Part shown: positions 3,415 through 53,721 of the stretch, piece by piece | Layout of the letters: every line of letters begins with the position of its first letter | Position numbering within the stretch: position 1 is the stretch's first letter | Assembly: GCA_017403185.1 (NCBI GenBank) | Contig: JAFQON010000011.1 | Span: forward strand, 1-64,000 | Reading direction: 5' to 3' | Source of the DNA: Clostridia bacterium | GTDB taxonomy: Bacteria > Bacillota > Clostridia > Oscillospirales > Acutalibacteraceae | Length of the DNA stretch: 64,000 nucleotides | Notes under the pieces: model-generated | Seen by the model: the letters and a program-made list of their open reading frames with translations, nothing else | Databases searched by the model: none | Told to the model about the DNA's origin: nothing | Translations under genes and position numbers: made by a program

Positions 3415-4431
3415 TTATTTTTCAATGCGAACCAAAGCATAACCGATTTTCTTTCGGCCGCAGGTATAGACCATATGAAGGAGATTACCCTCTGCAACAA
3501 TTGAGGGATATGAAAATTCTACACCGGGCTCTGTTTCAAGCTCAATGCGAACAGGATATGATGCACCGTTATCCTCTGAAAGGAAAAGGCAAAGAGGAGT
3601 GCGATCACCCCAATTTTCGCTTACAGGGTTACAAATAAGACCCAAAACGCCGCAATCTGTCATCGCCGCACCGATACCGCTGTTATTGTTGGGCATATCC
3701 GTGGGGCGTGCCGTTGACCATGTGCGACCGAAATCCGCTGATTCGCTGCGATAAATTTTGTTAAGATTAGTGCGGGCAAGCATATACACTCTGCCGTCAT
3801 GGGATTGATCCTCCCACACTGCGGGCTGAATAAGACCCTCACCTTCCTTGGGAAGCTCTTCCTTTCGGTTGCAGATTGTGCCGTCGGGCAATTCAAAAGC
3901 AACCGGTGCCGAAAGCTTCCATGTTTTGCCGTTATCTTCGCTGTAATCAGTCCAAGACTCCCATCTGTCACATAAATCTTCAGTCGATCCCGGTGCGAGA
4001 AGTGCACCGTTTGAAAGCCTTATCATCTGATTTTTTACCGGTCCCCTTCCGCCGATATCACCGGGAACAAGCTCTTCGGGTGTTGACCAGGTTTTGCCCT
4101 CGTCGGCAGAAACAGTTTTCATCGAGTACCAGTGACCCTCATCGATACCGCTTTTATAAATCATTGTAAGAACACCGTTCTCGGCAAAAAGAGTCGGATT
4201 CCAGTCTGCCTCGCCGTCATCGGGAGTTACGGGAACAGGCGTAGTCCATTCTCCGTCACGCAGTGCAAACCAAATACGGACATTTGGATTTTTTTCTTTA
4301 ATTCCTCCAAACCAAGCAGCCGCAGGCTTGCCGTTGCAGATTGCTACCGTTGCAGCATGGCATTCACCTGTTTCTGCGTTGATTCCTTCTGTTTCAAGAT
4401 ACTCTTTATATAAAAGTTCAGCCTTTATCAT
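3415..4431 (-). CDS. Asp-box (BNR) sialidase-like protein
   Basis: A 338-residue six-bladed beta-propeller of the sialidase superfamily (BNR_2 type). Four Asp-boxes are visible at about residues 108-115 (SADEGKTW), 164-171 (SEDNGKTW), 231-238 (SADFGRTW) and 285-292 (a degenerate SEDNGASY). The AAAWFGG and PNVRIWFA motifs near residues 37-56 are typical of this subgroup. The F/YRIP motif that supplies the first catalytic arginine of true GH33 sialidases is not seen, and there is no signal peptide, so a cytoplasmic enzyme acting on an imported sialoside or other glycoside is as likely as a classical neuraminidase. AAGGAGATG precedes the ATG. It lies downstream of kdsB and directly before a membrane-protein gene. 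Confidence 0.75.
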   Translation of the reverse strand: MIKAELLYKEYLETEGINAETGECHAATVAICNGKPAAAWFGGIKEKNPNVRIWFALRDGEWTTPVPVTPDDGEADWNPTLFAENGVLTMIYKSGIDEGHWYSMKTVSADEGKTWSTPEELVPGDIGGRGPVKNQMIRLSNGALLAPGSTEDLCDRWESWTDYSEDNGKTWKLSAPVAFELPDGTICNRKEELPKEGEGLIQPAVWEDQSHDGRVYMLARTNLNKIYRSESADFGRTWSTARPTDMPNNNSGIGAAMTDCGVLGLICNPVSENWGDRTPLCLFLSEDNGASYPVRIELETEPGVEFSYPSIVAEGNLLHMVYTCGRKKIGYALVRIEK

Positions 4432-4531: not shown

Positions 4532-5275
4532 TCAGCAACCGTGGAGTTCCTTATAGATGCGGATGACCTCCTGAAGGTCTTCCTCTGTGTCAACGCTGAC
4601 CGCTTCATACTGCGCAGGTGCGGGAACAATTTTGATTTTGTAGCCATGCTCCAGAACCTTAAGCTGTTCAAGTGACTCTGCCTCTGAAAGAGGGGTGGGA
4701 GCAAGCTTTGTGTATGTATTGAGGAACTCGTGTGTATAAGCATAAATTCCTACATGCTCAAAATACTTTGCAGCCTCAGCATGACGGGGATAAGGAATGG
4801 GTGAACGGGAAAAGTATATAGCATTGCCGTTCACATCCGTAACAACCTTAACAACAGTGTTATTGAGAACATAGTCGCCTTCGATAGGAACGCATCCCGT
4901 TGCCATAACGCAGTCAGGGCTGTTAATCAGCGCAGAGCCGATATCGTCAATTATTTCAGCAGGAACAAGAGGTTCATCACCCTGGATATTGATAACATAG
5001 TCGCAGTCATAATTGCTTGCAGCCTCTGCAACACGGTCAGAGCCTGTGGGATGGTTTTCACTTGTCATAACAGCTTCGCCGCCGAATGCGATAACCGCAT
5101 CATAAACGCGCTGATCGTCTGTTGCTACAACAACCTTGTCAAGAACCTTTGATTTGCTTGCGTTTTCATAAACATGCTGAATCATGGGCTTGCCGCAAAT
5201 ATCTTTAAGGGGCTTGCCGGGCAGACGGGATGAACCGTAGCGGGCAGGAATAACGCCTAAAACTTTAGCACTCAT
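4532..5275 (-). CDS. kdsB: 3-deoxy-manno-octulosonate cytidylyltransferase (CMP-KDO synthetase)
   Basis: 247 residues, full length for KdsB, which activates KDO with CTP to give CMP-KDO. The signature is complete: IPARYGSSRLPGKPL at residues 9-23 (CTP-binding loop), VATDD, ENHPTGSDR, NIQGDEPL (metal and CTP site), FSRSPIPYPR, HVGIYAY and the C-terminal LEQLKVLEHG. KDO is best known from Gram-negative lipopolysaccharide, so in a spore-former it more likely feeds a capsule or wall glycan carrying KDO or a related acid. No kdsA, kdsC or kdsD is in the window. GGAG precedes the ATG, and the gene lies 33 nt after the 5309-6520 gene in the same run. Confidence 0.9.
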   Translation of the reverse strand: MSAKVLGVIPARYGSSRLPGKPLKDICGKPMIQHVYENASKSKVLDKVVVATDDQRVYDAVIAFGGEAVMTSENHPTGSDRVAEAASNYDCDYVINIQGDEPLVPAEIIDDIGSALINSPDCVMATGCVPIEGDYVLNNTVVKVVTDVNGNAIYFSRSPIPYPRHAEAAKYFEHVGIYAYTHEFLNTYTKLAPTPLSEAESLEQLKVLEHGYKIKIVPAPAQYEAVSVDTEEDLQEVIRIYKELHGC

Positions 5276-7229: not shown

Positions 7230-7259
7230 TAAGATATACAGTTTTTGGGAGGGGTGAAT

Positions 7260-8744
7260 ATGAATTTTAAGGACAATTTAACAAAAAAAGCGGTAACAGC
7301 CCTGACAAATCTTCTTATTTCTACAATGCCGAAAAAATGCTTTACAAGCCGGGAACACTCTGACGGATTTATGCTTACGGGTGATAAAAAATTCACCGAC
7401 ACACCCGGCTCAAAATGGACTTGCGGCTTCGGCAAAGCGTCATTCACACCTGCTGATTATAATGATAAAACATACTATATTGCCGGCTATGATTCGAACA
7501 ATCCTGTTAAAGGTGTGCTCGATGATCTGTACGCAAGAGCGATTTATCTTGACGACAACACCGGTAACGGAGGCGTGATTTTCTGCGCAATTGACTGTGT
7601 CGGAATGAGCAGAAGAGATATTAATGATATAAGAAGACTTGTTCTTGAAAGCGGAAGACTCGGCAATGTCAAATCAATAAATATTTCTTCAACCCACACC
7701 CATGCAGGCGTTGACACTCAGGGTCTTTGGGGAGAAAAGATTTACAAATGCGGCAAAAATGAAGAATTTATGGCAAATCTTAAAATTAAAGCTGCGCAGG
7801 CAATTTTTGAAGCGTCTGAAAACCGAAAAGACGGCAAACTTTTTATGGGTTACACCCCTGCCGAAAATATGCAGGCTGATGTCAGGACGCCGGAAACATA
7901 TGACAAAAACCTCACCGTTTTCCGTTTTTCACCTGACGATAAATCAGGAGATATATACACCGTTAATTTTGCTTCACACGCAGAGCTGCTCGGAACAACA
8001 TCTCTTGTAAGTGCTGATTTTCCTGCATATCTTATTAAAGAAATTGAAGAAAGCGTGCCCGGTTCAAACGCCGTTTTCTTTAACGGTGCAATAGGCGGCA
8101 TGATTTCCGCAAAAGAAATAAAAAAAGTTTATCGGGATTCAATAGACTGTGAAGCATATATGAAAGATTTTGGCAGACAGCTCGGCAAGCTTGCTCTTTC
8201 GGTTAAAAACGAAACAGAGCTGTCCCCTCTTATTAATATCAAATCGAAAGGGATTTCGGTGCCCGGCGACAACACGGTGCTTATTCTTGCAAGATATCTC
8301 AATGTGCTTAACAATGATATTATAAGAACCGACAAAAGAAACAAGGTCTGCATTTTATCCGAGGTTGGTTATATGGAGCTCGGCAACAAGGATGCTGCAG
8401 TTTTCCTTGTTCCCGGCGAGCTTTTCCCGGAGCTTTACAACGGCGAATTTCTCACAGAAAAAGACAGCGCAAACCGCACAAAAGCGAGCTATAAAAAAGT
8501 GCTTGCCGACATGACGGATTGCAGACATAAATTTGTTATAGGTCTTTGCAACGATGAGCTCGGTTACATCCTTGCCGATAATGACTTTATGCTGAACGAA
8601 GCACTTCCCTATATAAACAAAGCAACCGATCACATGGACCGAGACCATTATGAAGAAACAAATTCAACAGGCCCCGAAACAGGAAGAATCATCCTTGAAG
8701 AAACTGAAAACCTGATCAGACACGCAAAACAATCCTTAATTTAA
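7260..8744 (+). CDS. Neutral/alkaline ceramidase-family hydrolase (cytoplasmic)
   Basis: 494 residues of the neutral/alkaline non-lysosomal ceramidase N-terminal family (zinc amidases that split ceramide into sphingosine and fatty acid). Seen directly: STHTHAG at residues 144-150, corresponding to the two zinc histidines (H146, H148), a third candidate zinc His in FASHAEL (H240), and SLVSADFP with a Ser (S251) where the catalytic serine lies in known neutral ceramidases. It is shorter than classical enzymes (about 650 residues) and lacks an obvious C-terminal Ig-like domain. There is no signal peptide, so it would act inside the cell. GGGAGGGG precedes the ATG at 7260; the TTG at 7245 is inside that ribosome site. 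It is followed by a secreted paralogue. Ceramide specificity is inferred. Confidence 0.75.
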   Translation: MNFKDNLTKKAVTALTNLLISTMPKKCFTSREHSDGFMLTGDKKFTDTPGSKWTCGFGKASFTPADYNDKTYYIAGYDSNNPVKGVLDDLYARAIYLDDNTGNGGVIFCAIDCVGMSRRDINDIRRLVLESGRLGNVKSINISSTHTHAGVDTQGLWGEKIYKCGKNEEFMANLKIKAAQAIFEASENRKDGKLFMGYTPAENMQADVRTPETYDKNLTVFRFSPDDKSGDIYTVNFASHAELLGTTSLVSADFPAYLIKEIEESVPGSNAVFFNGAIGGMISAKEIKKVYRDSIDCEAYMKDFGRQLGKLALSVKNETELSPLINIKSKGISVPGDNTVLILARYLNVLNNDIIRTDKRNKVCILSEVGYMELGNKDAAVFLVPGELFPELYNGEFLTEKDSANRTKASYKKVLADMTDCRHKFVIGLCNDELGYILADNDFMLNEALPYINKATDHMDRDHYEETNSTGPETGRIILEETENLIRHAKQSLI

Positions 8745-8803
8745 AGAAAGCTTACGGTTTCGCTTCAACCGTGAAAGATTTTATATGTAAGGAGATGCAA
8801 AAA

Positions 8804-10543
8804 ATGAAAAAAAACTTTCGTTCATTCATCGCGCTATTTCTTGTGTTGACAATGATTTTCACGGTAAATGCTTCGGCAGCATTTACTGCTGAGAAACACA
8901 GCAATCCTATTTATACCGTCACAAAAGTTTTAGGCGGTATCATTGACGGTGCCATAGAACTGTTGGGGTTTTTGGCACCTACTCCCGATTATCCCACAGT
9001 TGAAGAATACTTTGCTTCAGGCAGTGAAAATTTCTACGAAGGTACTGACAGTTTTATAGACAGCGCAGCTGACGGAGCAAAGTGGTCACTGGGCTTCGGG
9101 AAAGAAAGCCTTGTCCCTGCAAATCTTATTGACGGAACAAAAGAATATTACACCGGCGGATACTTCACTCAGAAGGTAAACGGCGTTTTTGACGATCAAA
9201 GGGCAAATGCAATCGCTCTTAATGACGGTTCAGGCAGAGGCACAACGGTTTTTGCTGCAATCGACGGTATAGGAGTTACCAACGGTGACATACGGGCAAT
9301 AAGAAGCGCCGTTGAGCAGAAGCTCAAGGAAAAAGGCATAAGCAGCGATATCAATGCCATTAACATTAACGCAACACACTGCCACACCGTTATTGATACA
9401 CAAGGCATAGGCCTCGACCTGCTGCCCAAAATTTTTCTCAGCTTCTTCGGCGGAGCAAAAAGATCGGTTGACACCGAATTCCTTGCAATAATGATTGACC
9501 GCACCTCCGATGCAATAGTTGAAGCTTATATGAATATGGAAAGCGGATCTCTCTTCTATTTTGAAACAACAGGCATGGGTAAAGATGAAGAATATAATCT
9601 TTATACCGAAGATGAATATCCTTATATAATCAACAAGAGATATTATACAGAAGGCTATCAGCACAGCTTTGCCTGCTTCAAATTTGTTCCCGACAACACA
9701 GAATCTGCAGAAACAATTTTTGCAAACATCGGCGCTCACCCCACTGTTGTTGACGAATCAACAAAGCTTCTTTCCGCAGACTTTCCTGCTTTTATGGAAG
9801 AAAAAATCAATGAAGCGGGTATGAATTTTATATTCATACAGGGTGCACAAGCTCCGGTTTCTGTTAATAAATGGGCTGAAATGCCTGAGGAAATCATAAA
9901 CGAGGTTGATGCAAAAATCCAGATTGACCCCACGGCTGAGGACTACAAGACAGCAATACACCTCGGTTATGAATATGCAAGGCTTATTCTCGAAGCTCAG
10001 AATAAAGCAAAAGAAATCGAACCAATACTCAATGTCAAAATGACTGAATATGTTGTCAAGCTTGAAACCGGTCTTTTTGCATACGGTGCTACCGAAGGCT
10101 TTATCGGCACAACAACGGTTAAGGATCCCTCAAGCAAAACCGGCTATTCAATCATTACCGAAGCAGGATATATAGAAATAGGCAGCGATATTGTTTTGCT
10201 TACAGCTCCCGGCGAAATCGTTCCTCAGCTTATTTACGGCAATGTTGTTTCAGCTGAGGACTCATATCACGGCACACCGTGGACTTATGAAGCAACAGCA
10301 AGCCTTGTGCCCGACAACAAAACAGTTCTTGTGATGGGGCTTTGCAACGATGCAATAGGCTACATACTTCCCGATAACGATTACGCACACTTCATCACAG
10401 ATATAATCTGGGATATCGACGGTGCGGATAAAGTCTTCGGCCCTTACCGCAGGCATTATGAAGAGATGCTTTCTCCCGGCAGCACAGCGGGTTCCGCAAC
10501 AATAGCTGTTCTTAACGAGCTCGTTAAGAGCGAAAATCCGTAA
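8804..10543 (+). CDS. Secreted neutral/alkaline ceramidase-family hydrolase
   Basis: 579 residues. A signal peptide (MKKNFRSF then a 15-residue hydrophobic core, VNASA cleavage) marks it as exported. It is a paralogue of the preceding gene: LGFGKESLVPAN, ATHCHTVIDTQG (candidate zinc ligands H192, H194), IGAHPTVV (third His) and LLSADFPAF (catalytic Ser position) align with the family landmarks. A predicted amphipathic stretch at residues 40-60 precedes the catalytic domain. AAGGAGATG gives the start at 8804 rather than 8771. It lies 59 nt after the first ceramidase-like gene, so the pair are probably co-transcribed: one enzyme outside, one inside. Actual substrates could be other N-acyl lipids. 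Confidence 0.75.
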   Translation: MKKNFRSFIALFLVLTMIFTVNASAAFTAEKHSNPIYTVTKVLGGIIDGAIELLGFLAPTPDYPTVEEYFASGSENFYEGTDSFIDSAADGAKWSLGFGKESLVPANLIDGTKEYYTGGYFTQKVNGVFDDQRANAIALNDGSGRGTTVFAAIDGIGVTNGDIRAIRSAVEQKLKEKGISSDINAININATHCHTVIDTQGIGLDLLPKIFLSFFGGAKRSVDTEFLAIMIDRTSDAIVEAYMNMESGSLFYFETTGMGKDEEYNLYTEDEYPYIINKRYYTEGYQHSFACFKFVPDNTESAETIFANIGAHPTVVDESTKLLSADFPAFMEEKINEAGMNFIFIQGAQAPVSVNKWAEMPEEIINEVDAKIQIDPTAEDYKTAIHLGYEYARLILEAQNKAKEIEPILNVKMTEYVVKLETGLFAYGATEGFIGTTTVKDPSSKTGYSIITEAGYIEIGSDIVLLTAPGEIVPQLIYGNVVSAEDSYHGTPWTYEATASLVPDNKTVLVMGLCNDAIGYILPDNDYAHFITDIIWDIDGADKVFGPYRRHYEEMLSPGSTAGSATIAVLNELVKSENP

Positions 10544-19433: not shown

Positions 19434-19491
19434 AAAGATAAAATCAAGCGCACCGGGCTCTAACTCCCGTTGCACTTGATTTTATCTTTTT
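19434..19491 (+). terminator. Strong rho-independent terminator of the redox pair
   Basis: A stem of about 19 bp, AAAGATAAAATCAAG...CTTGATTTTATCTTT (19434-19452 with 19471-19489, one interruption), followed by TTTTTATA. It is placed between convergent genes. Confidence 0.85.
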
Positions 19492-19514: not shown

Positions 19515-20741
19515 TCAGGAATAATTGCCGTCAGAGTCACAAAGCAGAAGAATATCGGGGTCTGTCGGCAAGGCAAAAATATTATCACCTCGGCAAGGCA
19601 GTTCCATATCCGTTTCGCTGACCTGCTTGATTTCACCGTCTTTAAGACTGAATACGCACATAGTCATTTGTGTGTCTGCTCCGTCGCTTATTTCGCTGAA
19701 AACACAGAGGAAGCTGTCACCGTCTGCGGTTTTGGCATAATACGGACTCATGGTATAGGCAAACCAGTCAGCCTCAAAGCTTGAACTTTGGGAAGAAACA
19801 GCAAGCGTGTAATAATATCCTCCGTCATAGTCATAGTTACCTGAAACGGTAAGCTCATCTGCACGCTTGTCACCCGTGATGTCGGTAAAGAACGGTGACG
19901 ATAAGGGCAGGCTTACAACATAAGCATCAGGTACGGCAGTGTATTTTTCTTTGAACAAATCGGGATATTCCGCAAAGGTCACGGTTGCTGTCTGAATACC
20001 GAAATTTGTGGGGGCAATGATGCCCTGTTCAAAATAAAAAGTTATGCCGTTATAATCAAGCACCCATGTCACATCATCTTCAGGGGTGTTTTTGAAATAA
20101 TCAGGAATGGCAGTTTTTCCGAAGGGTTCTTCTTCACCTATACGGCTCATAATAACTCTTTCGACAATCTCGGGAATATTTGAAATATCCGTTACAACAT
20201 CAGAAAGAGCAAGCAATTTTCCGCTTTCCGTGTCGTAATTAAGACCGTTGAAGGAGCGTGAATTCTCGGTGCCGTAATCTTCAAGAACACTTACAGCAAC
20301 ACTGTCGGCACGGCGTACCTGAACATCAAGAGTTGATACATAGGTTGAAAAGGCATCGCTGTCATTCAAAAATTCTTCGGTAGCAGTAACGATGAGATTA
20401 TCCTTTTCTTCTTCCATAGCTCTTTTTCTCATCTCAGAAGTTTCAGCGAGGGCTTTAGCAAGATGCGGATATTTTTTCTCCATTGATTTATCAAGGATAA
20501 CATCCGTATATTCGCTTCTCACAAGCATTTCGGGATAATCCTCATACCGTTCATAATGAGTGATATATTCTTTATTAAGTGAAAGAACGGTTATTTCTTT
20601 GTCCGCTTCATTTACAGCAGTTTGTGTTGTTTCATTTGGAGCAACCTCCTGCGGAGACTCTTCTCCGCAAGAGGTAAAAGCAACCATAAAACACAGAACT
20701 AATAAAATGCTGACAATATTTTTAATTTTACTCATTAACAT
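19515..20741 (-). CDS. Lipoprotein with RsiV-like DUF3298 domain
   Basis: 408 residues. A lipoprotein signal ends at AFTSC (Cys25), so the protein is anchored on the outer face of the membrane. Residues about 50-280 match the PdaC/RsiV-like DUF4163-DUF3298 arrangement (SFNGLNYDTESGKLLALSDVV, ITFYFEQGIIAP), found in anti-sigma factor RsiV and deacetylase-associated proteins; the C-terminus is an extra beta-rich domain. There is no anti-sigma N-terminus, so it is probably an envelope sensor or wall-associated protein. Its ATG overlaps the previous gene's TGA by one base (TGATG), so it is translationally coupled as the last gene of the eight-gene operon that starts at 26300. Confidence 0.75.
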   Translation of the reverse strand: MLMSKIKNIVSILLVLCFMVAFTSCGEESPQEVAPNETTQTAVNEADKEITVLSLNKEYITHYERYEDYPEMLVRSEYTDVILDKSMEKKYPHLAKALAETSEMRKRAMEEEKDNLIVTATEEFLNDSDAFSTYVSTLDVQVRRADSVAVSVLEDYGTENSRSFNGLNYDTESGKLLALSDVVTDISNIPEIVERVIMSRIGEEEPFGKTAIPDYFKNTPEDDVTWVLDYNGITFYFEQGIIAPTNFGIQTATVTFAEYPDLFKEKYTAVPDAYVVSLPLSSPFFTDITGDKRADELTVSGNYDYDGGYYYTLAVSSQSSSFEADWFAYTMSPYYAKTADGDSFLCVFSEISDGADTQMTMCVFSLKDGEIKQVSETDMELPCRGDNIFALPTDPDILLLCDSDGNYS

Positions 20742-22171
20742 CAAAACCCTTTGACGATAAACGCAACAACCTCTGTTGCCGAACGGTCTTCACGCTCATC
20801 TGTCATAATTGTAATTATGCTTCCGTCATCAAGAACTGCAGAATCACAGAACCACGGATAATTAGTGCTGAACAGCTCGCTGTCGGATATTTCGGAAATA
20901 AATGTACCGTTGTTATCCCAAAGAAGAACATCTCTCATATTTCCGTCAAAGGCTATATATCCGTTTGCGGTCTGAGTTACAAAAGTAACGCTTCCGAGCC
21001 CCTCCCCTTCAGCATCGCAAAGGGCTTTTTGAAGAACTCCGTCTTTGTTATAAACGAACACCTTGTGACCACTGTCATCTGCGGCATTTGCACAGACATA
21101 AACATTATTTTCATCAACGCAGAGCTGCATTATTGTATCCGCTTCTTTGAAAGTTACGGGAACAGAGGTGTATGTATTGCCGTTGAAGGTAACAATCGCA
21201 CATTCGTTGGAAGTGAAGAAGTTAACGCCCCATGCACCTGACGGATGAATTGCAAGGTTATCAATGTCTTCGTATGTTGCAATTACATTGCCGTCTCTGA
21301 TGCAGAGGATATCATTCATTGAGCCGCTGACCCAGAGAGTGCCGTCTGCAGTTGCTTCAATTCTGTCATAATCATCTTCGGGAAGCTCAATTTTATTAAC
21401 AAAGGCAAGAGTTGTGCCGTCATAGTGACATTCGCTGAGTTCGCCGTCAACAAGAACATATACTCTGTCACCGATTGCGGCAACGGAATGGTCGAAGGTT
21501 TCAAATGTTGTAACAGCTGCTTCAAAGGGAACAAATGTTGATGTAACGGTAAACGAACCCGCATTCACGCTTGCAGAATCCACCGAGAATCTTTCGCCTT
21601 CCCACTCCCACGGGCCGTCAACATTGCCGATATCCTCAAGATTGAAGGTTATACCGTCAAGAAGAGCTTGGATACGGCTGTCTTTGGTGTCGGTTGTGTC
21701 AAATTTGACATAAACAGATGCGTTTGCCCCTTCAACACGGTTGAAATAAACGAGAGTATCATCACCGTCGTCATACTTAAGAAGGTCAACGCCGCCGACT
21801 TTTACGGTTTCATAAGCGTTATTTTCTTTGTACTCATACTGATTGAAGCCGTAATACACAAGGTCTTCACGGAAATCGTACGGTTCGTCAATTTCAACAC
21901 TGATTGTTGCTTCAACCAAGTAATATTCGTTGTCCTCAGGATCGAGAATCTGAAGAACAGCTTTTGAATATCCTTCTTCATTTTTGAAGTCATCTTCAAT
22001 GTTTATCCAATCGCTGTCAAAATCAACTGTAAAAAGCGATGCTTCAACATCTGCATCGGAATTGGCCGACGGTGCTTTTGTGTTATCGGGTTTTTCGGGA
22101 GTATCATCGCCGCAGGCGGCAAAGGAAAACAACATTGCAAGTGTGAGAAGAACTGCAAGTAATTTTTTCAT
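20741..22171 (-). CDS. Lipoprotein with C-terminal beta-propeller-like domain
   Basis: 476 residues. The lipobox FAAC (Cys20) is followed by an Asp/Asn-rich linker, a beta-sandwich region (residues about 45-185) and a C-terminal series of short strands with repeats such as GTLWVSGSMNDILCIRDG, NVYVCANAAD and GYIAFDGNMRDVLLWDNNG that look like propeller blades. No enzymatic motif is seen. It is predicted to be surface-exposed and to bind a ligand or protein. It lies 22 nt after the DUF6935 gene and overlaps the next lipoprotein gene by one base. Confidence 0.7.
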   Translation of the reverse strand: MKKLLAVLLTLAMLFSFAACGDDTPEKPDNTKAPSANSDADVEASLFTVDFDSDWINIEDDFKNEEGYSKAVLQILDPEDNEYYLVEATISVEIDEPYDFREDLVYYGFNQYEYKENNAYETVKVGGVDLLKYDDGDDTLVYFNRVEGANASVYVKFDTTDTKDSRIQALLDGITFNLEDIGNVDGPWEWEGERFSVDSASVNAGSFTVTSTFVPFEAAVTTFETFDHSVAAIGDRVYVLVDGELSECHYDGTTLAFVNKIELPEDDYDRIEATADGTLWVSGSMNDILCIRDGNVIATYEDIDNLAIHPSGAWGVNFFTSNECAIVTFNGNTYTSVPVTFKEADTIMQLCVDENNVYVCANAADDSGHKVFVYNKDGVLQKALCDAEGEGLGSVTFVTQTANGYIAFDGNMRDVLLWDNNGTFISEISDSELFSTNYPWFCDSAVLDDGSIITIMTDEREDRSATEVVAFIVKGF

Positions 22172-22193
22172 AGTAATATCTCCTTTACTTTAT

Positions 22194-22805
22194 TTATGCC
22201 CAAGGATCTTCCTCTACGGGCACACGGATATCCGAAAGACATTGGATTTCAACAAGGAACCACTGACCTGTTGAAGGCTTTCTGCGAAGCTTCATCGGTC
22301 TCGGGTTATCTGCGCCTCCGCTTTTGACATAGAGCGTTGCCCAATCTTCATTATCGAAGGAATATGGGTTTTCGATAACGGTAATTCTATAGGGCACATC
22401 AGGCTTATAGCTGTTCTGAGGAGTTGCGCCCTCAAAATATGAGCGCGCTTTGTAGCCTTCAGAGCCGAGATGCTCTTTGATAAACTGTTTTTCAAAGCCA
22501 CTGACATCTGCAGGACCTTTTAAAAAATTAAGCATTTCAATTGTTGCATCGGGATTGTGCTCGTAATTGCACAAAGCGGCAAGGGTGAGTGCCGTTGTTT
22601 TAAAGGCGGAATCAAGGCTTGCTTCAGGCAGAGCCTGAAGCTCTGCAACATTTGTCGGAAGTGAAGCAAAGGTAAAGGTTTCGCTGTGGTTTTTGCCTTT
22701 GCCTGCTGACTGCACGGCATTGTTCACCGCTTTGTTAATTCCCTGTGAAACCTCTCTTTTAAGCGCTGATTCTGCCTGCCTTTTGAGTGAATCAAATAAT
22801 CCCAT
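22194..22805 (-). CDS. DUF6935-family protein
   Basis: 203 residues. The N-terminus MGLFDSLKRQAESALKREV is an amphipathic helix; the core (TFASLPTNVAELQALPEASLDS...DNPRPMKLRRK...DIRVPVEEDPWA) matches a Clostridial family catalogued as DUF6935, with no known activity. There is no signal peptide or membrane helix, so it is cytoplasmic and possibly membrane-associated through the N-terminal helix. The MGLFD start resembles that of the operon's first gene product, and SPFH proteins in the same functional group begin MGLI, hinting at a shared membrane-targeting helix. It lies 12 nt after the 22818-23273 gene. Confidence 0.7.
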   Translation of the reverse strand: MGLFDSLKRQAESALKREVSQGINKAVNNAVQSAGKGKNHSETFTFASLPTNVAELQALPEASLDSAFKTTALTLAALCNYEHNPDATIEMLNFLKGPADVSGFEKQFIKEHLGSEGYKARSYFEGATPQNSYKPDVPYRITVIENPYSFDNEDWATLYVKSGGADNPRPMKLRRKPSTGQWFLVEIQCLSDIRVPVEEDPWA

Positions 22806-22817
22806 TGGTAATACCTC

Positions 22818-23273
22818 CTAATCTTTGATAAATCTGTAATTCATAAAGGTAAAATATCCGCTTTCGTCAAGCGGCCTTACCCATGCTTGAGCTTCTTCGT
22901 CAAAAACCTCGCCTTTAATTCCTGTATCATACCACAGCTCACCGTCACGCAATTCCCACTGCATTGGCGAATCGGCAATCATACCGTCAACAAGAGTGAA
23001 ATATCCCGCTGCAACCGCTTTGTCAACCTCAGCCTGCGATACGCCCTCGGGCAGAGGCATCAGCATATACAGCTTGCCGTCATCACATATTTTAATCTGC
23101 ATGCCGATAATCTTCTTGCGTTCTTTCATTTCTTCGGCAACGGCATCCTCATCTGTTTCATCTATGTAAAACATAGGTGAAGCAAGATACTCTTCTGCCG
23201 TCAAATAAACAAGTTCGTCATTATCGCTGAATACTCCTATTGAGTGAAATTTCCATTTGCCGATAAAATCCAT
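22818..23273 (-). CDS. Small conserved protein of unknown function
   Basis: 151 residues, acidic and soluble, beginning MDFIGKWKFHSIGVF. Alternating short strands (KWKFHSIGVF, GKLYMLMPL, GYFTLVDG, MQWELRDGELWYD, GYFTFMNYRFI) suggest a small lipocalin-like or immunoglobulin-like barrel; no family is recognised. GGGAGGAAA in front of the ATG at 23273 decides the start; the frame extends upstream to 23363 only by running into the TPM gene. It is the fifth gene of the 26300-19515 operon. Confidence 0.65.
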   Translation of the reverse strand: MDFIGKWKFHSIGVFSDNDELVYLTAEEYLASPMFYIDETDEDAVAEEMKERKKIIGMQIKICDDGKLYMLMPLPEGVSQAEVDKAVAAGYFTLVDGMIADSPMQWELRDGELWYDTGIKGEVFDEEAQAWVRPLDESGYFTFMNYRFIKD

Positions 23274-23289
23274 ATACTTTCCTCCCGAG

Positions 23290-24045
23290 TTAATTATTCT
23301 TATTCTCTGTAGGCTTCGGCTTTTCTCTGCGTTCAATGTTATTATAAAGAAAATTGTCCGCACTGCCCGTTATAACCATACTGCCCGGTCGGGTATATAC
23401 AGTTGCATTTTCCTGCATTTTTACTGATTTGTTTTTTGAAGCAATGCCGTTAATTATGAGGAAACCGATAAGCAGGCCTATCAGAAGCGAAACGGGCAGC
23501 CAGATGATTGAAACGCCGTCTTTTTCTTCGCTTGCGCCTGTTGTATCGGTATCGTTATTCAAAGGCTCTCCGTCATAAACATATCCGCCTGAATAACCGT
23601 TCTCAAGATATTCTTCTGCAAGCTCATAGCAGGCATAAATTCCTCCGTAGTAGCTGTCATTGCTGTCATACGCATCAATCATACTGTCAACAGCGGCATC
23701 TGTCAGAATTTCTTCTGCACTGCCCGAAGTGAACACAGAATATGATTTGTTCCAATCGTCATTAACAAAGATTATGCCGTTTTCGTTATCGGTGTGATCG
23801 CTATATGTTCCCGAAGAAAATTCATCGGCAGTTACATCGCCCGTACCTTCGGTTATGCAGAAAAGCACGGTAACGCCGTAAGCTGACTCGAGCTTTTCAG
23901 CAAACAAATCAAGCTCTTCAATTTCACCCTGAGAGAGCTTATCGGCGTAGTCTATTACATACTGCTGAGTGTAAGCAGATGCAGAGAATACGAACGAAAC
24001 ACAAATAAGAGCTGCAATAATTATTGCAAAAATCTTTTTAGTCAT
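23290..24045 (-). CDS. TPM-domain membrane protein (YdjH-like)
   Basis: 251 residues. A signal peptide (TKKIFAIIIAALICVSFVFSASA) is followed by an extracytoplasmic TPM domain (residues about 25-150: VIDYADKLSQGEIEELDLFAEKLESAYGVTVLFCI, then NENGIIFVNDD), a Ser/Asp linker, a transmembrane helix (IIWLPVSLLIGLLIGFLII) and a basic cytoplasmic tail. B. subtilis YdjH has the same plan and works with YdjG and YdjI in recruiting PspA to the membrane; that role is inferred here. AAGGAGGTG decides the ATG at 24045. It lies 13 nt after the YdjG-like gene, the same pairing as in B. subtilis. Confidence 0.8.
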   Translation of the reverse strand: MTKKIFAIIIAALICVSFVFSASAYTQQYVIDYADKLSQGEIEELDLFAEKLESAYGVTVLFCITEGTGDVTADEFSSGTYSDHTDNENGIIFVNDDWNKSYSVFTSGSAEEILTDAAVDSMIDAYDSNDSYYGGIYACYELAEEYLENGYSGGYVYDGEPLNNDTDTTGASEEKDGVSIIWLPVSLLIGLLIGFLIINGIASKNKSVKMQENATVYTRPGSMVITGSADNFLYNNIERREKPKPTENKNN

Positions 24046-24058
24046 TTTCCGCACCTCC

Positions 24059-25129
24059 TTAAAGCAGCTCAATCAGCCACATAAGGCCGTAAATTACTGC
24101 GCCTATGCCTGCACCGAGTAAAAGTGAAGCCTTTGTGACAGCTTTTTTATCGGTCGGAATATTACCGACGAATTTGCCTGTCTGTCCGTTCATTGCAAAG
24201 GTGAAGTTTTCGCCGTTCCACTTTGTGTTGAGAAGCCACACGGGGTAGAGTGCATACTTATAAATGCCGTTTGCAACGTTCATATTTGCACCCTGATTTT
24301 CAACCTCGTCATATCCCTTTACGGTTTCCCTGAACGAATCAATAATGCTCTGCCTGATTCTTTCATTGGCTCTGGGCATACTTTCTTCGGCTGTAACGTC
24401 ATATTTGTCCGCAAGATAGCCTGCAAGATAAGCGGTATTGAAATCGACGGCCTGCGACAAATCAAAGGGTTCAACGGATTCCATAAGATCGTCGGGCATT
24501 TTGGTTGAGCCGTCAACGGGAATGTTGTCAAAGCCTATATTGCCGCTTCTGTAAATGTCAAAATATGAGGTTTCGGTGTATTCGTAATTTTCGTCAGACC
24601 ACTTCTTTACCTTTGTAGCTTTATAGTTTGCGTTACCGATTGCATCACAGGAAAAGAGCCAATGCGGCACATATACGCCCTTGATTTCTTCAAGACGGTT
24701 GTCAGCAAGGAACGATTTCGGCACGAATTTTTTTGATGAAATATGTTTTTTCAGCGCTTCTTTTGCCGCTTTTTTATCAAGCTTGAAAGGAATAACCAAA
24801 TCAGGCTTCAACGCACCCGAAAACTGCCCCTTCATAACAACTTGATTACCGCAGTACGGGCAGGTTGTTGCACCTGTTGTGCTATCGGCAACAATTTCAC
24901 CGCCACAGGAATTGCAGGCATAAACGCTCATGCCGTATGTTTCGCCTGCGCCCCACTGTGCGCCCTGCGAATTCCAGTTGATTTGCTCAACCTGATTTGC
25001 CGTTTCTTCGGGCATCGCAGTAATATCAAACTCAGTGTCACAGTAAGGGCATTTCAGCTTTTGTGCACCTGTATTGAACTCAACAGCGCCGCCGCAGCAC
25101 GGACATTTCTGTTCAAGAATTGTTGACAA
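24059..25129 (-). CDS. TFIIB-type zinc-ribbon membrane protein (YdjG-like)
   Basis: 356 residues. Two zinc ribbons open the protein: CPCCGG...CPYC (residues 9-30) and CNSCGG...CPYCGN (73-94). A conserved alpha/beta region follows (IPFKLDKKAAKEALKKHI, KGVYVPHWLFSCD, YALYPVWLLNTKWNG), ending in a C-terminal hydrophobic helix (LLLGAGIGAVIYGLMWLI). This is the YdjG/PriA-like zinc-ribbon family; in B. subtilis YdjG is a membrane partner of the TPM protein YdjH. The protein is predicted to be cytoplasmic and tail-anchored. The adjacent TPM gene supports the assignment. The start codon overlaps no neighbour; the stop of the small TM gene is 2 nt away. Confidence 0.8.
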   Translation of the reverse strand: MSTILEQKCPCCGGAVEFNTGAQKLKCPYCDTEFDITAMPEETANQVEQINWNSQGAQWGAGETYGMSVYACNSCGGEIVADSTTGATTCPYCGNQVVMKGQFSGALKPDLVIPFKLDKKAAKEALKKHISSKKFVPKSFLADNRLEEIKGVYVPHWLFSCDAIGNANYKATKVKKWSDENYEYTETSYFDIYRSGNIGFDNIPVDGSTKMPDDLMESVEPFDLSQAVDFNTAYLAGYLADKYDVTAEESMPRANERIRQSIIDSFRETVKGYDEVENQGANMNVANGIYKYALYPVWLLNTKWNGENFTFAMNGQTGKFVGNIPTDKKAVTKASLLLGAGIGAVIYGLMWLIELL

Positions 25130-25131
25130 GG

Positions 25132-25290
25132 TTAATCATCTCCTTGCTTATTTATATCTGCATCATAATAAACCATACCGTTTTTATCGGGCACATAGAA
25201 TTTTGTTTTGTAATACCACACGCCTGCTGCAATGGCGACAACCAATGCAGCAATCACAATAATAACGACTGCGGTTTTCATTCTGCTCAT
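25132..25290 (-). CDS. Small single-pass membrane protein
   Basis: 52 residues starting MSRMKTAVV: one transmembrane helix (VVIIVIAALVVAIAAGVWYY) and a polar Asp-rich tail. The ATG at 25290 overlaps the TGA of the preceding gene in an ATGA arrangement, so translation is coupled to it, and only 2 nt separate it from the YdjG-like gene. A longer frame from 25314 is less likely. No family is recognised; it could act as a membrane adaptor in the operon. Confidence 0.7.
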   Translation of the reverse strand: MSRMKTAVVIIVIAALVVAIAAGVWYYKTKFYVPDKNGMVYYDADINKQGDD

Positions 25291-26300
25291 CTCTGTCGGG
25301 ATGTTCCGCAGCAAGCGCAGAATGCACCGCTTTCGTTTGTTGCGTTACAAGCGGGACATACCCAAGCCTGTGATACGGGCTGCTGACCGTAAGCAGGCTG
25401 CTGATTGTAGCCCTGATTCATAGGCTGATTATAGCCATTATTCATCGGTTGATTATACTGATTCTGCTGAGCATAGGGATTAGGCTGTTGCTGTGCATAA
25501 GCATTCTGCTGAGCGTAAGAATTCTGCTGAACATAATTATTCTGCTGTGCATACGGATTAGGCTGTGCCTGCGGATTCTGATACATTCCGCCTGCCATAC
25601 CGAAAGCAGGGTTAACAGGATTGGGATTCTGATAAGGCACTGCATTTGCGGGTGCATAACCGCCCATACCCATTGCACCGTTGTTCATCGGCATACCAGC
25701 ATTGCCGTTTTGTGTAAGGTTATTGATAACCTGCTGTGCCATCTGCTGATAGCGGTTATATTCCATTGTACCCATACCCTCAACATCGTTGTCATTGAGT
25801 CTGACGGTAATTTCATCAAAATAGGGATTGTTTACATTAATATCAATGTAAAAATCGTATGTAAACTTGTATCTCGGAGGATTGTAGCTTACCTCCTCGC
25901 CGTCCTTGCCCTGTGTATAAATTTCCTCGCGGTCTTCATCAACCCTGAGGTTGCAGCCCGTAACGCTTGAAAGAGGAATAACATCGGGGTTTTCATCGCT
26001 CCAGCTTCCCGGATTGCGGCGTGAAACAACAAAGCTCTGCTTCATAGGGTCAATATAAATCTTGTCGTCTTCACCGAAGGTGAACATAGCGGAAAAGCCG
26101 GCAAGAATCTGCTTGTTCTGCTCTCTGTAGGCAAGCTGCTGTTTGATTTCTGCAACAGTCGAGCTTCTTCTGTCGCTGAAAAACGGTGAAAGCTTCTTTG
26201 CGCATTCTTTGCACATATTGCCGTCCTCAAGTTTTCTGTTGCCCAAAATTCCGATCTTGTCGCCGCAGATGTCACAATATTTTTTGTCAAAAAGTCCCAT
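25287..26300 (-). CDS. DUF4428/zinc-ribbon protein with Gln-rich repeats
   Basis: 337 residues. The N-terminal DUF4428 zinc-binding motif (CDICGDKIG...GNMCKECA, residues 9-37) is followed by a beta-rich PH-like region (IYIDPMKQSFVVSRR, YDFYIDINVNNPYFDEITVRL), a long Gln/Asn/Pro/Tyr-rich disordered segment (about 205-310, hexads of the AQQNxY type) and a C-terminal zinc ribbon (CPACNATNESGAFCACCG). The same final ribbon style occurs in the SPFH protein at 52369-53721. It is cytoplasmic and probably an interaction hub. AAAGGAG precedes the ATG. As first gene of the operon it lies opposite the LuxR-type regulator. Confidence 0.75.
   Translation of the reverse strand: MGLFDKKYCDICGDKIGILGNRKLEDGNMCKECAKKLSPFFSDRRSSTVAEIKQQLAYREQNKQILAGFSAMFTFGEDDKIYIDPMKQSFVVSRRNPGSWSDENPDVIPLSSVTGCNLRVDEDREEIYTQGKDGEEVSYNPPRYKFTYDFYIDINVNNPYFDEITVRLNDNDVEGMGTMEYNRYQQMAQQVINNLTQNGNAGMPMNNGAMGMGGYAPANAVPYQNPNPVNPAFGMAGGMYQNPQAQPNPYAQQNNYVQQNSYAQQNAYAQQQPNPYAQQNQYNQPMNNGYNQPMNQGYNQQPAYGQQPVSQAWVCPACNATNESGAFCACCGTSRQR
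25461..25580. repeat. 18-bp tandem coding repeats (Gln-rich hexads)
   Basis: About six degenerate copies of an 18-bp unit starting ATTCTGCTG on the plus strand, encoding the AQQNxY hexads of the 25287-26300 protein on the minus strand. Copy number could vary between strains by slippage. Confidence 0.7.
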
Positions 26301-26343: not shown

Positions 26344-26372
26344 ATTTTATTAATTTGTATACATAAAAATAA
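26344..26372 (-). promoter_or_regulatory. Candidate activator-dependent promoter of the envelope operon
   Basis: On the minus strand, -10 TAAAAT (26344-26349), 17-nt spacer and a poor -35 TTATTT (26367-26372). The palindrome at 26372-26390 abuts the -35, the position expected of an activator that contacts sigma. No better promoter is seen before the ATG at 26300. Confidence 0.45.
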
Positions 26373-26422
26373 GTAGCCCTTAAGGCTACTTCCATCAAAA
26401 GAGGGCTACCTTTAGGGCTACC
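26372..26422. promoter_or_regulatory. Operator-like repeats between the envelope operon and the LuxR gene
   Basis: A perfect 19-bp palindrome (AGTAGCC-CTTAA-GGCTACT, 26372-26390) is followed by two direct copies of GGGCTACC at 26403-26410 and 26415-26422. All share the half-site GGGCTAC/GTAGCC(C). The palindrome centre is about 44 nt upstream of the predicted transcript start of the minus-strand operon. The most likely binder is the LuxR-type protein encoded next door. Confidence 0.65.
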
Positions 26423-26483: not shown

Positions 26484-26512
26484 TTGACACTGTGAACAAA
26501 ATATGATAGAAT
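26484..26512 (+). promoter_or_regulatory. Sigma-A promoter of the LuxR-type regulator
   Basis: -35 TTGACA (perfect, 26484-26489), 17-nt spacer, -10 TAGAAT (26507-26512), 29 nt before the ATG. Confidence 0.75.
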
Positions 26513-26541: not shown

Positions 26542-27513
26542 ATGTCAACCATATACGGAATTGCGTTTTCTGTTTCTTTGCTTATGATTGGTGTTTACTT
26601 TTTTGTTGACAGCAAGCATGACAAATGGTTATTGTCGCTGTTTATCTCCGTTGCGGTATGTGACTTTGGCTATTTTTTGTTATCCCTTTCAAAAACACTT
26701 GATGCTGCGCTTTGGTCAAACAGAATAGCATATCTCGGAAATGTCTTTCTTCCGTTTTCGCTTCTGATGATGATAATGAGTCTGTCACGCTTTAATTACC
26801 CCAAATGGTTACCGAAAATTCTTGTTGCAGTAAACACGGTTATGCTTTTGATTGCCGCAAGCGGAGGATTTTTGCCGATTTATTATAAGGAAGTTTCACT
26901 CGGATTTGACAACGGATATCCCGTGCTTATCAAAGAATACGGTCCGCTTCACCCTGTTTATAAGGTTTTTCTTTTTGCGTATTTTACCGCAATGGTGGCG
27001 GTTATTGCATATACCGCAGTTAAGAAAACTGTTGTTTCAAGCAAGCACACAGCTTTCCTCGCCTTCGTTGTTATCGGAAATATCGCAATATGGCTTGTTG
27101 AAAATATGATTCATTCAAGCTTTGAGTTCCTTTCAATTTCATATATTGTAACCGAAGGGATGATACTTTTCCTTTATTCGATACTTCAGGACTACGGAAT
27201 AACCGACACACCAAAGGAAATTGTTACGGTAACCGAGCAGCACACAGAAACAGTCGAAGTATTAAAAGCTTTCAGCGATGAACAGATTGAAAGTATTATG
27301 AAAAATTGGGATGCAACAGAAACGCTTTCTCAAAGAGAAAAAGAAGTTTTGCACTTCCTGCTTGAAAACAAGAAACGGAAGGTTATTGCAGAAACGCTGT
27401 TCGTAACCGAAAGCACAATCAAAAAACATACCGCTGCAATATACCGCAAGCTCGAAACAGCAAACAGAGCAGAGCTTTTTGAAAAAGCAAAAGAGTATTC
27501 CGCACAAATTTAA
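26542..27513 (+). CDS. Membrane-anchored LuxR-family transcriptional regulator
   Basis: 323 residues. The N-terminal 215 residues contain seven hydrophobic helices resembling the 7TM region of some histidine kinases. After a short linker, a LuxR-type HTH occupies residues about 258-320 (LSQREKEVLHFLLENKKRKVIAE and TESTIKKHTAAIYRKLETANR). It would be a one-component sensor that binds DNA while staying in the membrane, suited to sensing envelope state or a lipid-like ligand. It is divergent from the eight-gene envelope operon with repeated sites between them, so it is the probable regulator of that operon. AAAGGAGG precedes the ATG. Confidence 0.85.
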   Translation: MSTIYGIAFSVSLLMIGVYFFVDSKHDKWLLSLFISVAVCDFGYFLLSLSKTLDAALWSNRIAYLGNVFLPFSLLMMIMSLSRFNYPKWLPKILVAVNTVMLLIAASGGFLPIYYKEVSLGFDNGYPVLIKEYGPLHPVYKVFLFAYFTAMVAVIAYTAVKKTVVSSKHTAFLAFVVIGNIAIWLVENMIHSSFEFLSISYIVTEGMILFLYSILQDYGITDTPKEIVTVTEQHTETVEVLKAFSDEQIESIMKNWDATETLSQREKEVLHFLLENKKRKVIAETLFVTESTIKKHTAAIYRKLETANRAELFEKAKEYSAQI

Positions 27514-33441: not shown

Positions 33442-34518
33442 TTATCTTATTTCGTCATACATTACTTTAATTATTTTACAGGAGTTAAGCGGTGCTTCGC
33501 AATTATTGGAATGATAATAAGAAACAAGAAAATAATCTTCGCCTTCAATAATTGCAGGGTAGCAATAGCCGTTATTCGGGTCATCTTCAAGCGCATAGAT
33601 ACGGCTGAAGGTTTTGCCGTCATCCTCGCTTACGGCGCACACAAGCGGAGTTCTGCCCCACACGCTGCCGTCTGCGTTGGGTCTTGTTGTATAATTGGGA
33701 ATCGGATTGAACACGGCAAGAGTGAACTCCCCTGCCTTTTTCATAAGAAGCGGTGAATCGGGCGATGAGAAAAATCTGTTTGGCGAAGGCTCAGTCCATG
33801 TTTCGCCGTTATCATAAGAAAAGCATTCAAACTGAAATCCCAAATCGGTGCGTGAAAAAGCATGAAGAACACCGTCGGAATGCTGATAAACCATAGTTTC
33901 CTGCAAACCTGTTTCGCTTTTATCTGAGAACGGTATATCCTGCCTTTCGGCTATTTCATGCCATATTTTCCCGTCATCATCGGATGCAAAAATACATTTT
34001 AATCCATGACCGATATATTTCATTTCACCGTTAATTTTCTTTGAGTGAATATTTGCAGGCAGAATAATTCTGCCGTTTTGAAGTCTTACCGCATGGTCAT
34101 TTTCAATTACAAAATAGTTTTCGTTATCATCAACAAACTTTTCGGGAGTTGAAAATGTTTTGCCTTCATCTGCAGAGTGTGAAAAATAAGGAATTCCGCT
34201 TTCGTTTTCCTTGGCTTTTCGCAGATATATGATGCCTACATCACCGTTATTCATTCTCACAAGCGAAGGACACATATAATTCCTCGAATTTTCGTCATGG
34301 GCAAATAGAATCCGTTCATCAACCCATGTTTCGCCCTCATCATATGAGGTGAAAGCGGCGATATCGGCGGAGCATTCATCGTGCCAATCATTACCCGTAA
34401 ATCTTGAATAAACAAAAAGAATTGAATTATCTTTTAATCGCAGAAAAGTACCCTCGCCGTTGCGGGGATTGCCGTCTTTTGCCGTTAAAAATAAAACTTC
34501 ACGCCCGATTTTTTCCAT
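33442..34518 (-). CDS. Asp-box (BNR) sialidase-like protein
   Basis: A 358-residue beta-propeller with five Asp-box-like repeats: SYDEGETW, SADEGKTF, SDDDGKIW, SYDNGETW and SEDDGKTF. PRNGEGTFLRLKDNSILFVYSRF at the N-terminus and NDHAVRLQNGRIILPANIH in the middle are typical of BNR_2 proteins; as with the protein at 3415, no FRIP catalytic-arginine motif is seen and there is no signal peptide. The substrate is unknown; possibilities include sialosides or other charged glycosides. It is last in a run with sdaAB-sdaAA and a CrtO-like gene, 9 nt after the latter. A weak GATAC-like ribosome site precedes the ATG. Confidence 0.75.
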   Translation of the reverse strand: MEKIGREVLFLTAKDGNPRNGEGTFLRLKDNSILFVYSRFTGNDWHDECSADIAAFTSYDEGETWVDERILFAHDENSRNYMCPSLVRMNNGDVGIIYLRKAKENESGIPYFSHSADEGKTFSTPEKFVDDNENYFVIENDHAVRLQNGRIILPANIHSKKINGEMKYIGHGLKCIFASDDDGKIWHEIAERQDIPFSDKSETGLQETMVYQHSDGVLHAFSRTDLGFQFECFSYDNGETWTEPSPNRFFSSPDSPLLMKKAGEFTLAVFNPIPNYTTRPNADGSVWGRTPLVCAVSEDDGKTFSRIYALEDDPNNGYCYPAIIEGEDYFLVSYYHSNNCEAPLNSCKIIKVMYDEIR

Positions 34519-52368: not shown

Positions 52369-53721
52369 TTATTTTGCATCATTTACATCAAATCTGTCGC
52401 CGCATTCGGGGCAGAACTTGGGAGGATTCTTGGGGTCTTCGGGCTTCCAACCGCATTTATCGCACTGATAAAGAGGTGCTGCCTCGGGCTTTTTAGCGCC
52501 GCAGTTGGGGCAGAATTTGCCTTTGTTCACTGCACCGCAGGAACAGGTCCAGCCTTCTTCGGCAGGTTTCTTTGCTCCGCATTCCGTGCAGAAGTTACCG
52601 CTTACGGTTGCTCCGCAAGCACATTTCCAGCCGTTTGCGGGTGCTGCAGGAGCTGCCTGTGCGGGTGCCGCTGCTGCCTGCTGCTGTGCCATCTGCTGCT
52701 GTTGCTGCTGAACGCCCGCATTATACATCTGTGCCGCATTGAAGCCGCCGTTTGCATTCATTGCCATACCCATACCCATGAAGCCCGTGAAGGCGCCTGC
52801 TTCGTTGTTGGCGGCCGCTTCCATTGCATTTGCCTGAGCATCAGTCATTCTGCCTGCCATCATAAACGGATTTGAGCCCATTGTTGCGGCATCTTCCATC
52901 TGATTAATCTTCTGCATATCTTCGGGAGTGAGTGTAATCGGATTAAGTGCAATTGATTCAACGGAAATACCTCTGCGCTCTGTCCATTCAACCTTAAGGG
53001 CAGAATTCATTGCATCCTTAAGCTCTGTTGTATGAGCAGGAATCTGTGCAGGTCTGAGTTCAAGCTCTGTCAACCTTGCAAATGCAGGCTGAAGAGCAGA
53101 GATAAACTCGGTTTTGAGCTGCATATCAATTTCTTCTCTTCTGTATTCATCGCTTACATTGCCTGCAATCTTTGTGTAGAAAAGAAGAGGGTCTGTGATT
53201 TTGTAGGAATAAACACCGTTGCATCTTACCTGCACGGTTCTTGCCATGCCGAGACGCTTGTTCACGACCTCAAACATAAAGGGATTTGCGGTGCCGAACT
53301 TGTTATCAAGAATTTCTTTTGTGTTGAAATAATAAACTCTCTGGTCTTTGCCGGTATCGCCGCCGTATGTAAATCTTTTGCCGATAAGCTTAAAGGTTTC
53401 CTTAATGCTGTCACCGAGTTTGCCCGAGAAAATTGAAGGCTCTGTTGAAGAATCATAGGTGAATTCACCGGGCTCTGCGCAAACCTCAACAATCTTGCCC
53501 TGCTCAACGATAATCATGCACTGACCGTCAGCAACGGCAATACCCGAGCCGTTTGAAATGATGTTGTCGCTGCCCTTGGTGTTGGAGCTTCTGCCGCTGA
53601 TGCGCTTCTGACCTTTCACCATAAGCACATCGTTTTCAAGTGAATCACAGTAGAAAAATTCCTTCCACTGGTCTGCCAATACTCCGCCGAGTGCTCCTAC
53701 TCCTGCTTTAATAAGTCCCAT
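52369..53721 (-). CDS. SPFH-domain protein with C-terminal zinc ribbons (YdjI-like)
   Basis: 450 residues. An N-terminal SPFH-like domain (residues about 20-260, annotated in relatives as virion core protein) is followed by a Met/Gln/Ala-rich linker and three zinc ribbons: CACG...CTECG, CSCG...CPNCG and CDKC...CPECG. This is the plan of B. subtilis YdjI, which interacts with PspA and works with YdjG/YdjH; homologues of the latter two are in the operon at 19515-26300. There is no transmembrane helix, so it is peripheral to the membrane. AAAGGAG precedes the ATG; it lies 15 nt after a sialidase-like gene. Confidence 0.85.
   Translation of the reverse strand: MGLIKAGVGALGGVLADQWKEFFYCDSLENDVLMVKGQKRISGRSSNTKGSDNIISNGSGIAVADGQCMIIVEQGKIVEVCAEPGEFTYDSSTEPSIFSGKLGDSIKETFKLIGKRFTYGGDTGKDQRVYYFNTKEILDNKFGTANPFMFEVVNKRLGMARTVQVRCNGVYSYKITDPLLFYTKIAGNVSDEYRREEIDMQLKTEFISALQPAFARLTELELRPAQIPAHTTELKDAMNSALKVEWTERRGISVESIALNPITLTPEDMQKINQMEDAATMGSNPFMMAGRMTDAQANAMEAAANNEAGAFTGFMGMGMAMNANGGFNAAQMYNAGVQQQQQQMAQQQAAAAPAQAAPAAPANGWKCACGATVSGNFCTECGAKKPAEEGWTCSCGAVNKGKFCPNCGAKKPEAAPLYQCDKCGWKPEDPKNPPKFCPECGDRFDVNDAK

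Follow-up and report, generated by a model that had tools for sequence, protein, structure and literature searches.

In Bacillus subtilis, the zinc-ribbon protein YdjG, the TPM-domain protein YdjH, and the SPFH protein YdjI are required to bring PspA to the membrane, as described in the accessible part of PMC8581546. The same text reports that loss of ydjG or ydjH mislocalizes cell-wall synthesis, that YdjI influences membrane fluidity, and that a shape defect is seen only under alkali stress. The Bacillus operon, named ydjFGHL in PMC11237479, is presented in the available portion of that work as coupled with pspA, and other band-7 operons lacking pspA are considered there as possibly working with PspA encoded elsewhere. 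Here, we analyze a related operon in 64,000 nucleotides (nt) of a Clostridia bacterium (contig JAFQON010000011.1, positions 1 to 64,000; hereafter, the window). The window belongs to an assembly (GCA_017403185.1) of 2.4 Mb in 50 contigs that is 80% complete. As judged by homology, the operon encodes YdjG- and YdjH-type proteins, the window also encodes a YdjI-type SPFH protein, and the whole is a variant of the YdjGHI module outside the PspA-based Psp system.

An earlier note on this DNA had described eight minus-strand genes between 26300 and 19515 as an envelope module resembling ydjGHI without PspA. Open reading frame (ORF) analysis and family searches confirm all eight genes and their families:

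25287..26300, minus strand: g1, DUF4428 zinc-ribbon protein (Pfam DUF4428, E 4e-17)
25132..25290, minus strand: g2, 52-residue protein with a single transmembrane (TM) segment (ORF and TM prediction)
24059..25129, minus strand: g3, YdjG-type protein with two zinc ribbons and a C-terminal TM segment (alignment to pspA-linked YdjG)
23290..24045, minus strand: g4, YdjH-type protein with a signal peptide, TPM domain, TM segment, and conserved C-terminal tail (TPM PF04536, E 3e-11)
22818..23273, minus strand: g5, small accessory protein (no family match)
22194..22805, minus strand: g6, DUF6935 protein (E 1e-53)
20741..22171, minus strand: g7, predicted lipoprotein with no recognized fold (lipoprotein-type N-terminus)
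19515..20741, minus strand: g8, predicted lipoprotein combining a DUF3298/RsiV-like domain with a C-terminal domain that weakly resembles PliI/Tsi1 (DUF3298, E 2e-5)
19442..19481, minus strand: terminator-like hairpin downstream of g8 (folding energy -22.1 kcal/mol, z -4.7)

The genes are tightly packed. g1 and g2 overlap by 4 nt, g2 and g3 are separated by 2 nt, g7 and g8 overlap by 1 nt, and the remaining junctions are gaps of 12-22 nt. The hairpin 3' of g8 is absent from the list produced by a terminator pattern scan. In g1, the DUF4428 zinc ribbon is followed by a weakly PH-like middle domain, a Q/N-rich linker, and a C-terminal zinc ribbon; g2 takes a longer form of 171-179 residues in many relatives.

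The relationship to YdjG and YdjH is carried by alignments across the operon's core. The g3 protein aligns end to end with the YdjG-type protein of a pspA locus from the same phylum (L139), with 35% identity over 353 columns (E 8e-74), and the g3 profile scores 301 bits against the pspA-linked YdjG. We call the L139 protein YdjG-type because its gene lies directly downstream of pspA and its N-terminus, MIISYKCPNC, is the sequence encoded by the ydjG primer given in PMC8581546. The g4 profile matches the YdjH-type neighbor in this locus (L139/L155) over positions 4-266 of 269 with 107 bits; the single g4 sequence gives a weak match (E 2e-4) confined to the TPM part. The window's SPFH protein matches the YdjI-type protein of L155 at E 2e-13. 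The zinc-ribbon and TPM proteins therefore do align with YdjG and YdjH, as the earlier note had supposed. The g4 tail was found in 101 TPM frames, which come from overlapping locus sets and so are not 101 independent genes. In two loci, L102 (10001-11284) and L113 (1281-2576), the tail is joined to the g3 C-terminus, and no g4/TPM gene was detected at either locus. These fusions suggest that the g4 tail functions jointly with g3.

A phylum-wide search of 299 genomes with the g3 profile returned matches in 30, and 25 g3 loci besides the window score above 150 bits. The Bacillus order pspA, ydjG, ydjH, SPFH occurs in three of them (L138, L139, and L140). All three loci end within the SPFH gene, whose complete sequence was obtained only for L139, as L155. 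Two others (L147 and L148) combine pspA and g3 with a weak SPFH match. PspA is Pfam-confirmed beside g3 in these 5 of the 25 loci, and the other 20 were judged by eye (ORFs of at least 150 residues within ~1.5 kb), without a PspA scan. Like the B. subtilis pspA-ydjGHI operon, the window has a YdjG-type zinc-ribbon/TM gene adjoining a YdjH-type TPM gene, plus a YdjI-type SPFH protein. Unlike that operon, it lacks PspA and adds DUF4428, DUF6935, and lipoprotein genes as well as a divergent regulator; the SPFH gene, which comes first in the relatives' operon, is absent from the window's. The many zinc ribbons, whose cysteines are invariant in the alignments of g1 and g3, could instead indicate a module for zinc or metal homeostasis. 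However, the eight genes include no transporter or metal-regulator family, and YdjG and YdjI from the pspA operon bear the same ribbons, so we regard a metal function as very improbable.

The absence of PspA extends to relatives. No match to PspA (PF04012) was found in the window's own, 80% complete assembly. Among 150 genomes of the same family, PF04012 matches 8 and exceeds the cut-off in 5, all five of which lack g3; none of the 64 genomes bearing g3 has a match over the cut-off, and one of them (G136) has a sub-threshold match in a 725-residue frame. These results bear out the earlier description of the module as PspA-less. SPFH (PF13421, E up to 0.001) follows the opposite pattern. It is present in 86 of the 150 genomes, comprising 63 of the 64 with g3 versus 23 of the 86 others (Fisher p 2e-21, relatedness ignored). 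An SPFH gene lies within 5 kb of 58 of 77 g3 places, a count that excludes three weak g3 fragments (at most 38 bits) and weak SPFH places (<38 bits, none on a g3 contig). We found no account of a PspA-less YdjGHI form in the literature consulted, in which most subscription papers were not covered. Whereas the B. subtilis proteins with SPFH, TPM, and zinc-ribbon domains are described as bringing PspA to the membrane, here these parts are retained in a gut family in which PspA is rare. Their basic job would therefore be PspA-free, if this distribution holds in closed genomes, and what YdjG, YdjH, and YdjI do could then be tested independently of PspA. Activation of the B. subtilis pspA-ydjGHI operon by phage SPP1 infection (accessible text of PMC11153139) raises the alternative of an anti-phage defense operon, yet the spread of g3 over 64 of 150 genomes is broad rather than patchy-looking, and PADLOC gave no match at E 0.01 for seven operon proteins (g2 was not scanned) or the SPFH protein. 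A defense role therefore has very little to recommend it.

Gene order was compared in 79 loci from other assemblies (L035-L113), obtained from the best 80 of 291 stretches encoding a g3 relative. Among those 80, the closest by g3 (94-97% identity) are from Clostridia/Oscillospiraceae, mostly from goat, sheep, and deer gut samples. All 79 loci were counted, and the counts are lower bounds because contig ends cut many loci. Seven genes (g1, g2, g3, g4, g6, g7, and g8) occur in the same order on one strand in at least 28 of the 79; 21 of these have a strong g7 (>300 bits), and the other 7 have a weak g7 signal, accepted only under the looser rule. This order is conserved more than expected by chance, contrary to what would be seen if the arrangement were peculiar to this genome. 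All eight genes stand together in 6 loci (5 with strong g7), and g5 is found in just 6 of 30 strong-g7 loci. g5 is an accessory gene, so the eight-gene module of the earlier note stands for seven of its members and not for g5 as a fixed one.

The conserved neighborhood of relatives includes an SPFH gene that the window's operon does not have. SPFH, g3, and g4 occur in that order in 67 of the 79 loci, and SPFH precedes the operon in 19 of the 21 loci that have all seven genes with a strong g7, the exceptions being L043 and L053. The order in L040 and L047 is divergent LuxR gene, SPFH, g1; in the window, L043, and L053, the LuxR gene is followed by g1 with no SPFH between them. The association with an SPFH gene expected by the earlier note is thus real in relatives and missing from the window's operon. 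The gene that it had tied to the operon sits outside, 26 kb away:

52369..53721, minus strand: stand-alone YdjI-type SPFH gene with C-terminal zinc ribbons (PF13421, E 3e-19)

A genome of the same genus (G145) carries both an in-operon SPFH gene and a second, stand-alone SPFH gene flanked by neighbors of the window type. In a tree of 50 of 87 SPFH matches (those long and strong enough) plus two more, the stand-alone copies of the window and G145 are nearest to each other, with modest support (84/84). The idea that the gene at 52 kb is the operon's own copy, moved, is rejected on the basis of the two copies in G145 and the tree. Most likely, the window's lineage lost the in-operon SPFH gene and kept a separate stand-alone paralogue; the direction of this change follows from the distribution rather than from a dated tree. 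SPFH was found in all eight genomes behind eight chosen loci, including those of L043 and L053. It is possible that the stand-alone SPFH protein serves as the partner of g3 and g4 in trans. Just upstream of this stand-alone gene, at a distance of 16 nt, is a sialidase/BNR-like gene (53737-54996; weak BNR_2 match).

The earlier inventory, sound for the eight genes, overlooked a divergent regulator and an element beside it:

26542..27513, plus strand: divergent regulator with an N-terminal seven-transmembrane (7TM) domain (HisKA_7TM) and a LuxR-type helix-turn-helix (HTH) (PF16927, E 1e-14; PF00196, E 7e-14)
26484..26512, plus strand: predicted promoter-like site for the LuxR gene, TTGACA-17-TAGAAT (11/12 consensus bases)
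26371..26422, minus strand: repeat element, GGTAGCCCTAAAGGTAGCC then a GTAGCC-n5-GGCTAC dyad, predicted operator (19-mer search)

Among strong-g7 loci that extend more than 2.5 kb upstream, 13 of 15 have the 7TM-LuxR gene in divergent orientation (L065 and L102 do not). Among the other loci, those with more than 4.5 kb carry it in 3 of 24 cases. The element lies between the LuxR gene and the operon. Allowing up to 2 mismatches, 18 of 19 LuxR-bearing loci have the 19-mer upstream of that gene (L061 does not), 8 of these 18 with the exact dyad, and the 19-mer occurs once without a LuxR match (L068). At the same tolerance, it is single-copy in the window's assembly and in G145, G076, and G018 (the last with 2 mismatches) and was not found in G015 or G148; with at most 1 mismatch, it is single-copy in 7 of 8 further genomes and absent from the eighth. 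A search of the window's assembly at E 0.001 gave no further match to the LuxR protein. Because regulator and element are each single-copy, the simplest reading is one regulator, one site, and one operon, with the 7TM-LuxR protein predicted to control the operon through this element. As an RNA hairpin, the element folds well (z -3.4 and -4.3). However, its covariation does not exceed that of shuffles, with 1 pair changed on both sides and 406 of 500 shuffles reaching that number, and a DNA operator is therefore preferred. The best Rfam hit in the LuxR-g1 intergenic region reaches 24.6 bits versus a gathering score of 60. Promoter-like sites number 24 in this region versus 17.4 in shuffles, so the promoter match alone is no evidence.

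Membrane LuxR regulators with 10-12 TM segments activate nearby genes in Eggerthella, according to the accessible portion of PMC9734109. Like the DadR-type regulators of Eggerthella lenta described there, the window's protein combines an N-terminal TM domain with a LuxR HTH and is encoded near the genes it is predicted to control. It differs in having 7 TM segments of the HisKA_7TM type and in lying beside an envelope module rather than metabolic enzymes. The locus thus offers a possible one-component membrane regulator of an envelope response. By eye, L039, L042, L046, L049, and others have two further genes between LuxR and SPFH: one of Xre-type HTH family immediately upstream of the former, and one for a small zinc-ribbon protein immediately upstream of the latter.

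Both g7 and g8 have lipoprotein-type N-termini, with a cysteine that is invariant in each alignment. The last gene, g8, encodes 408 residues, and its DUF3298 domain is predicted to adopt an RsiV-like fold, which makes an outward binding role plausible. The earlier note's suggestion of the lipoproteins as possible sensors goes further than this. RsiV and related DUF3298 proteins, as portrayed in the accessible text of PMC5014341, differ from g8 in several respects: g8 is a predicted lipoprotein, neither an anti-sigma part in the protein nor a sigma gene among its neighbors was found, and a C-terminal domain has been added. Three lysozyme-contact residues of RsiV were compared, assuming a one-residue numbering offset. 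Pro259 is kept in 16 of 16 close g8 homologues, Tyr261 is replaced by Asn in all 16, and Ser169 could not be placed on g8. The C-terminal domain has only a moderate fold match to the PliI/Tsi1 inhibitors and no sequence match to them was found; in g8 it is fused, unlike the hydrolase inhibitors in the available part of PMC10933484, which are separate proteins. As a candidate hydrolase-binding surface protein in gut bacteria exposed to host lysozyme, g8 could make the operon chiefly a shield, in which g8 and perhaps g7 neutralize lysozyme-like enzymes of the host or rivals, with the YdjGHI-type part serving as a secondary arm for membrane repair. We consider this emphasis improbable.

The reading toward which we lean, with modest confidence, is a PspA-less YdjGHI-type membrane-anchored scaffold that answers envelope damage, equipped with surface lipoproteins and its own regulator. 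By analogy with B. subtilis (accessible text of PMC8581546), g3 and g4 would form a membrane anchor that recruits an SPFH oligomer of the YdjI type; in this genome, the SPFH protein would be encoded elsewhere and act in trans. The extra zinc-ribbon protein g1 may join on the inner face, g7 and g8 may sample the outside, and the probable ligand of g8 is peptidoglycan or an enzyme that hydrolyzes it. Envelope disturbance would be sensed by the 7TM-LuxR protein, which is predicted to turn on the operon through the single-copy element, and PspA would not be needed. This scaffold retains the PspA-less, ydjGHI-like core of the earlier interpretation and abandons its fixed set of eight genes and operon-linked SPFH. 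Two observations weigh against it: the loss of the Tyr261 contact from g8, and the lack of a proven sensor domain in the operon. The latter would also suit a constitutive membrane-organizing module, in which platforms of g3, g4, SPFH, and g1 position cell-wall synthesis without stress sensing and the lipoproteins are passive wall binders, as would the mislocalized cell-wall synthesis and altered membrane fluidity reported for B. subtilis. However, the dedicated divergent regulator and single-copy element point to conditional expression, and the alkali-dependent shape defect likewise speaks for a conditional role; we find constitutive function unlikely. A stronger form of the damage-responsive scaffold, which we put forward only tentatively, is a PspA-independent envelope guard. 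In it, g8, with two domains that may be related to lysozyme-binding proteins, would capture host or rival hydrolases, YdjG/YdjH and SPFH would stabilize the membrane, and the 7TM-LuxR protein would act directly via one operator, without a sigma factor, two-component pair, or PspA.

Related genes occur elsewhere in the assembly. On contig C48 (L114 1-6699), a sister operon comprises genes for a 5'-nucleotidase, a lipoprotein, SPFH, g1, a g2 of 177 residues, and a g3 truncated where the contig ends; a 530-residue g8-like protein on contig C19 (L158) may continue it. Contig C47 (L115 6371-8301) carries a third YdjG/YdjH-like gene pair with no SPFH nearby, whose TPM protein has the Gly/Ser-rich C-terminal tail characteristic of YdjH. 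Inspection of the window by eye also revealed sialidase/BNR-like genes at 3415-4431 and 33442-34518 and a KdsB/CMP-sugar synthetase-like protein at 4532-5275, which is, to our knowledge, unusual for a Clostridia genome. Two proteins encoded side by side at 7245-8744 and 8771-10543 look, again by eye, like neutral ceramidases, as does another encoded on contig C47 (L115 2125-3930).

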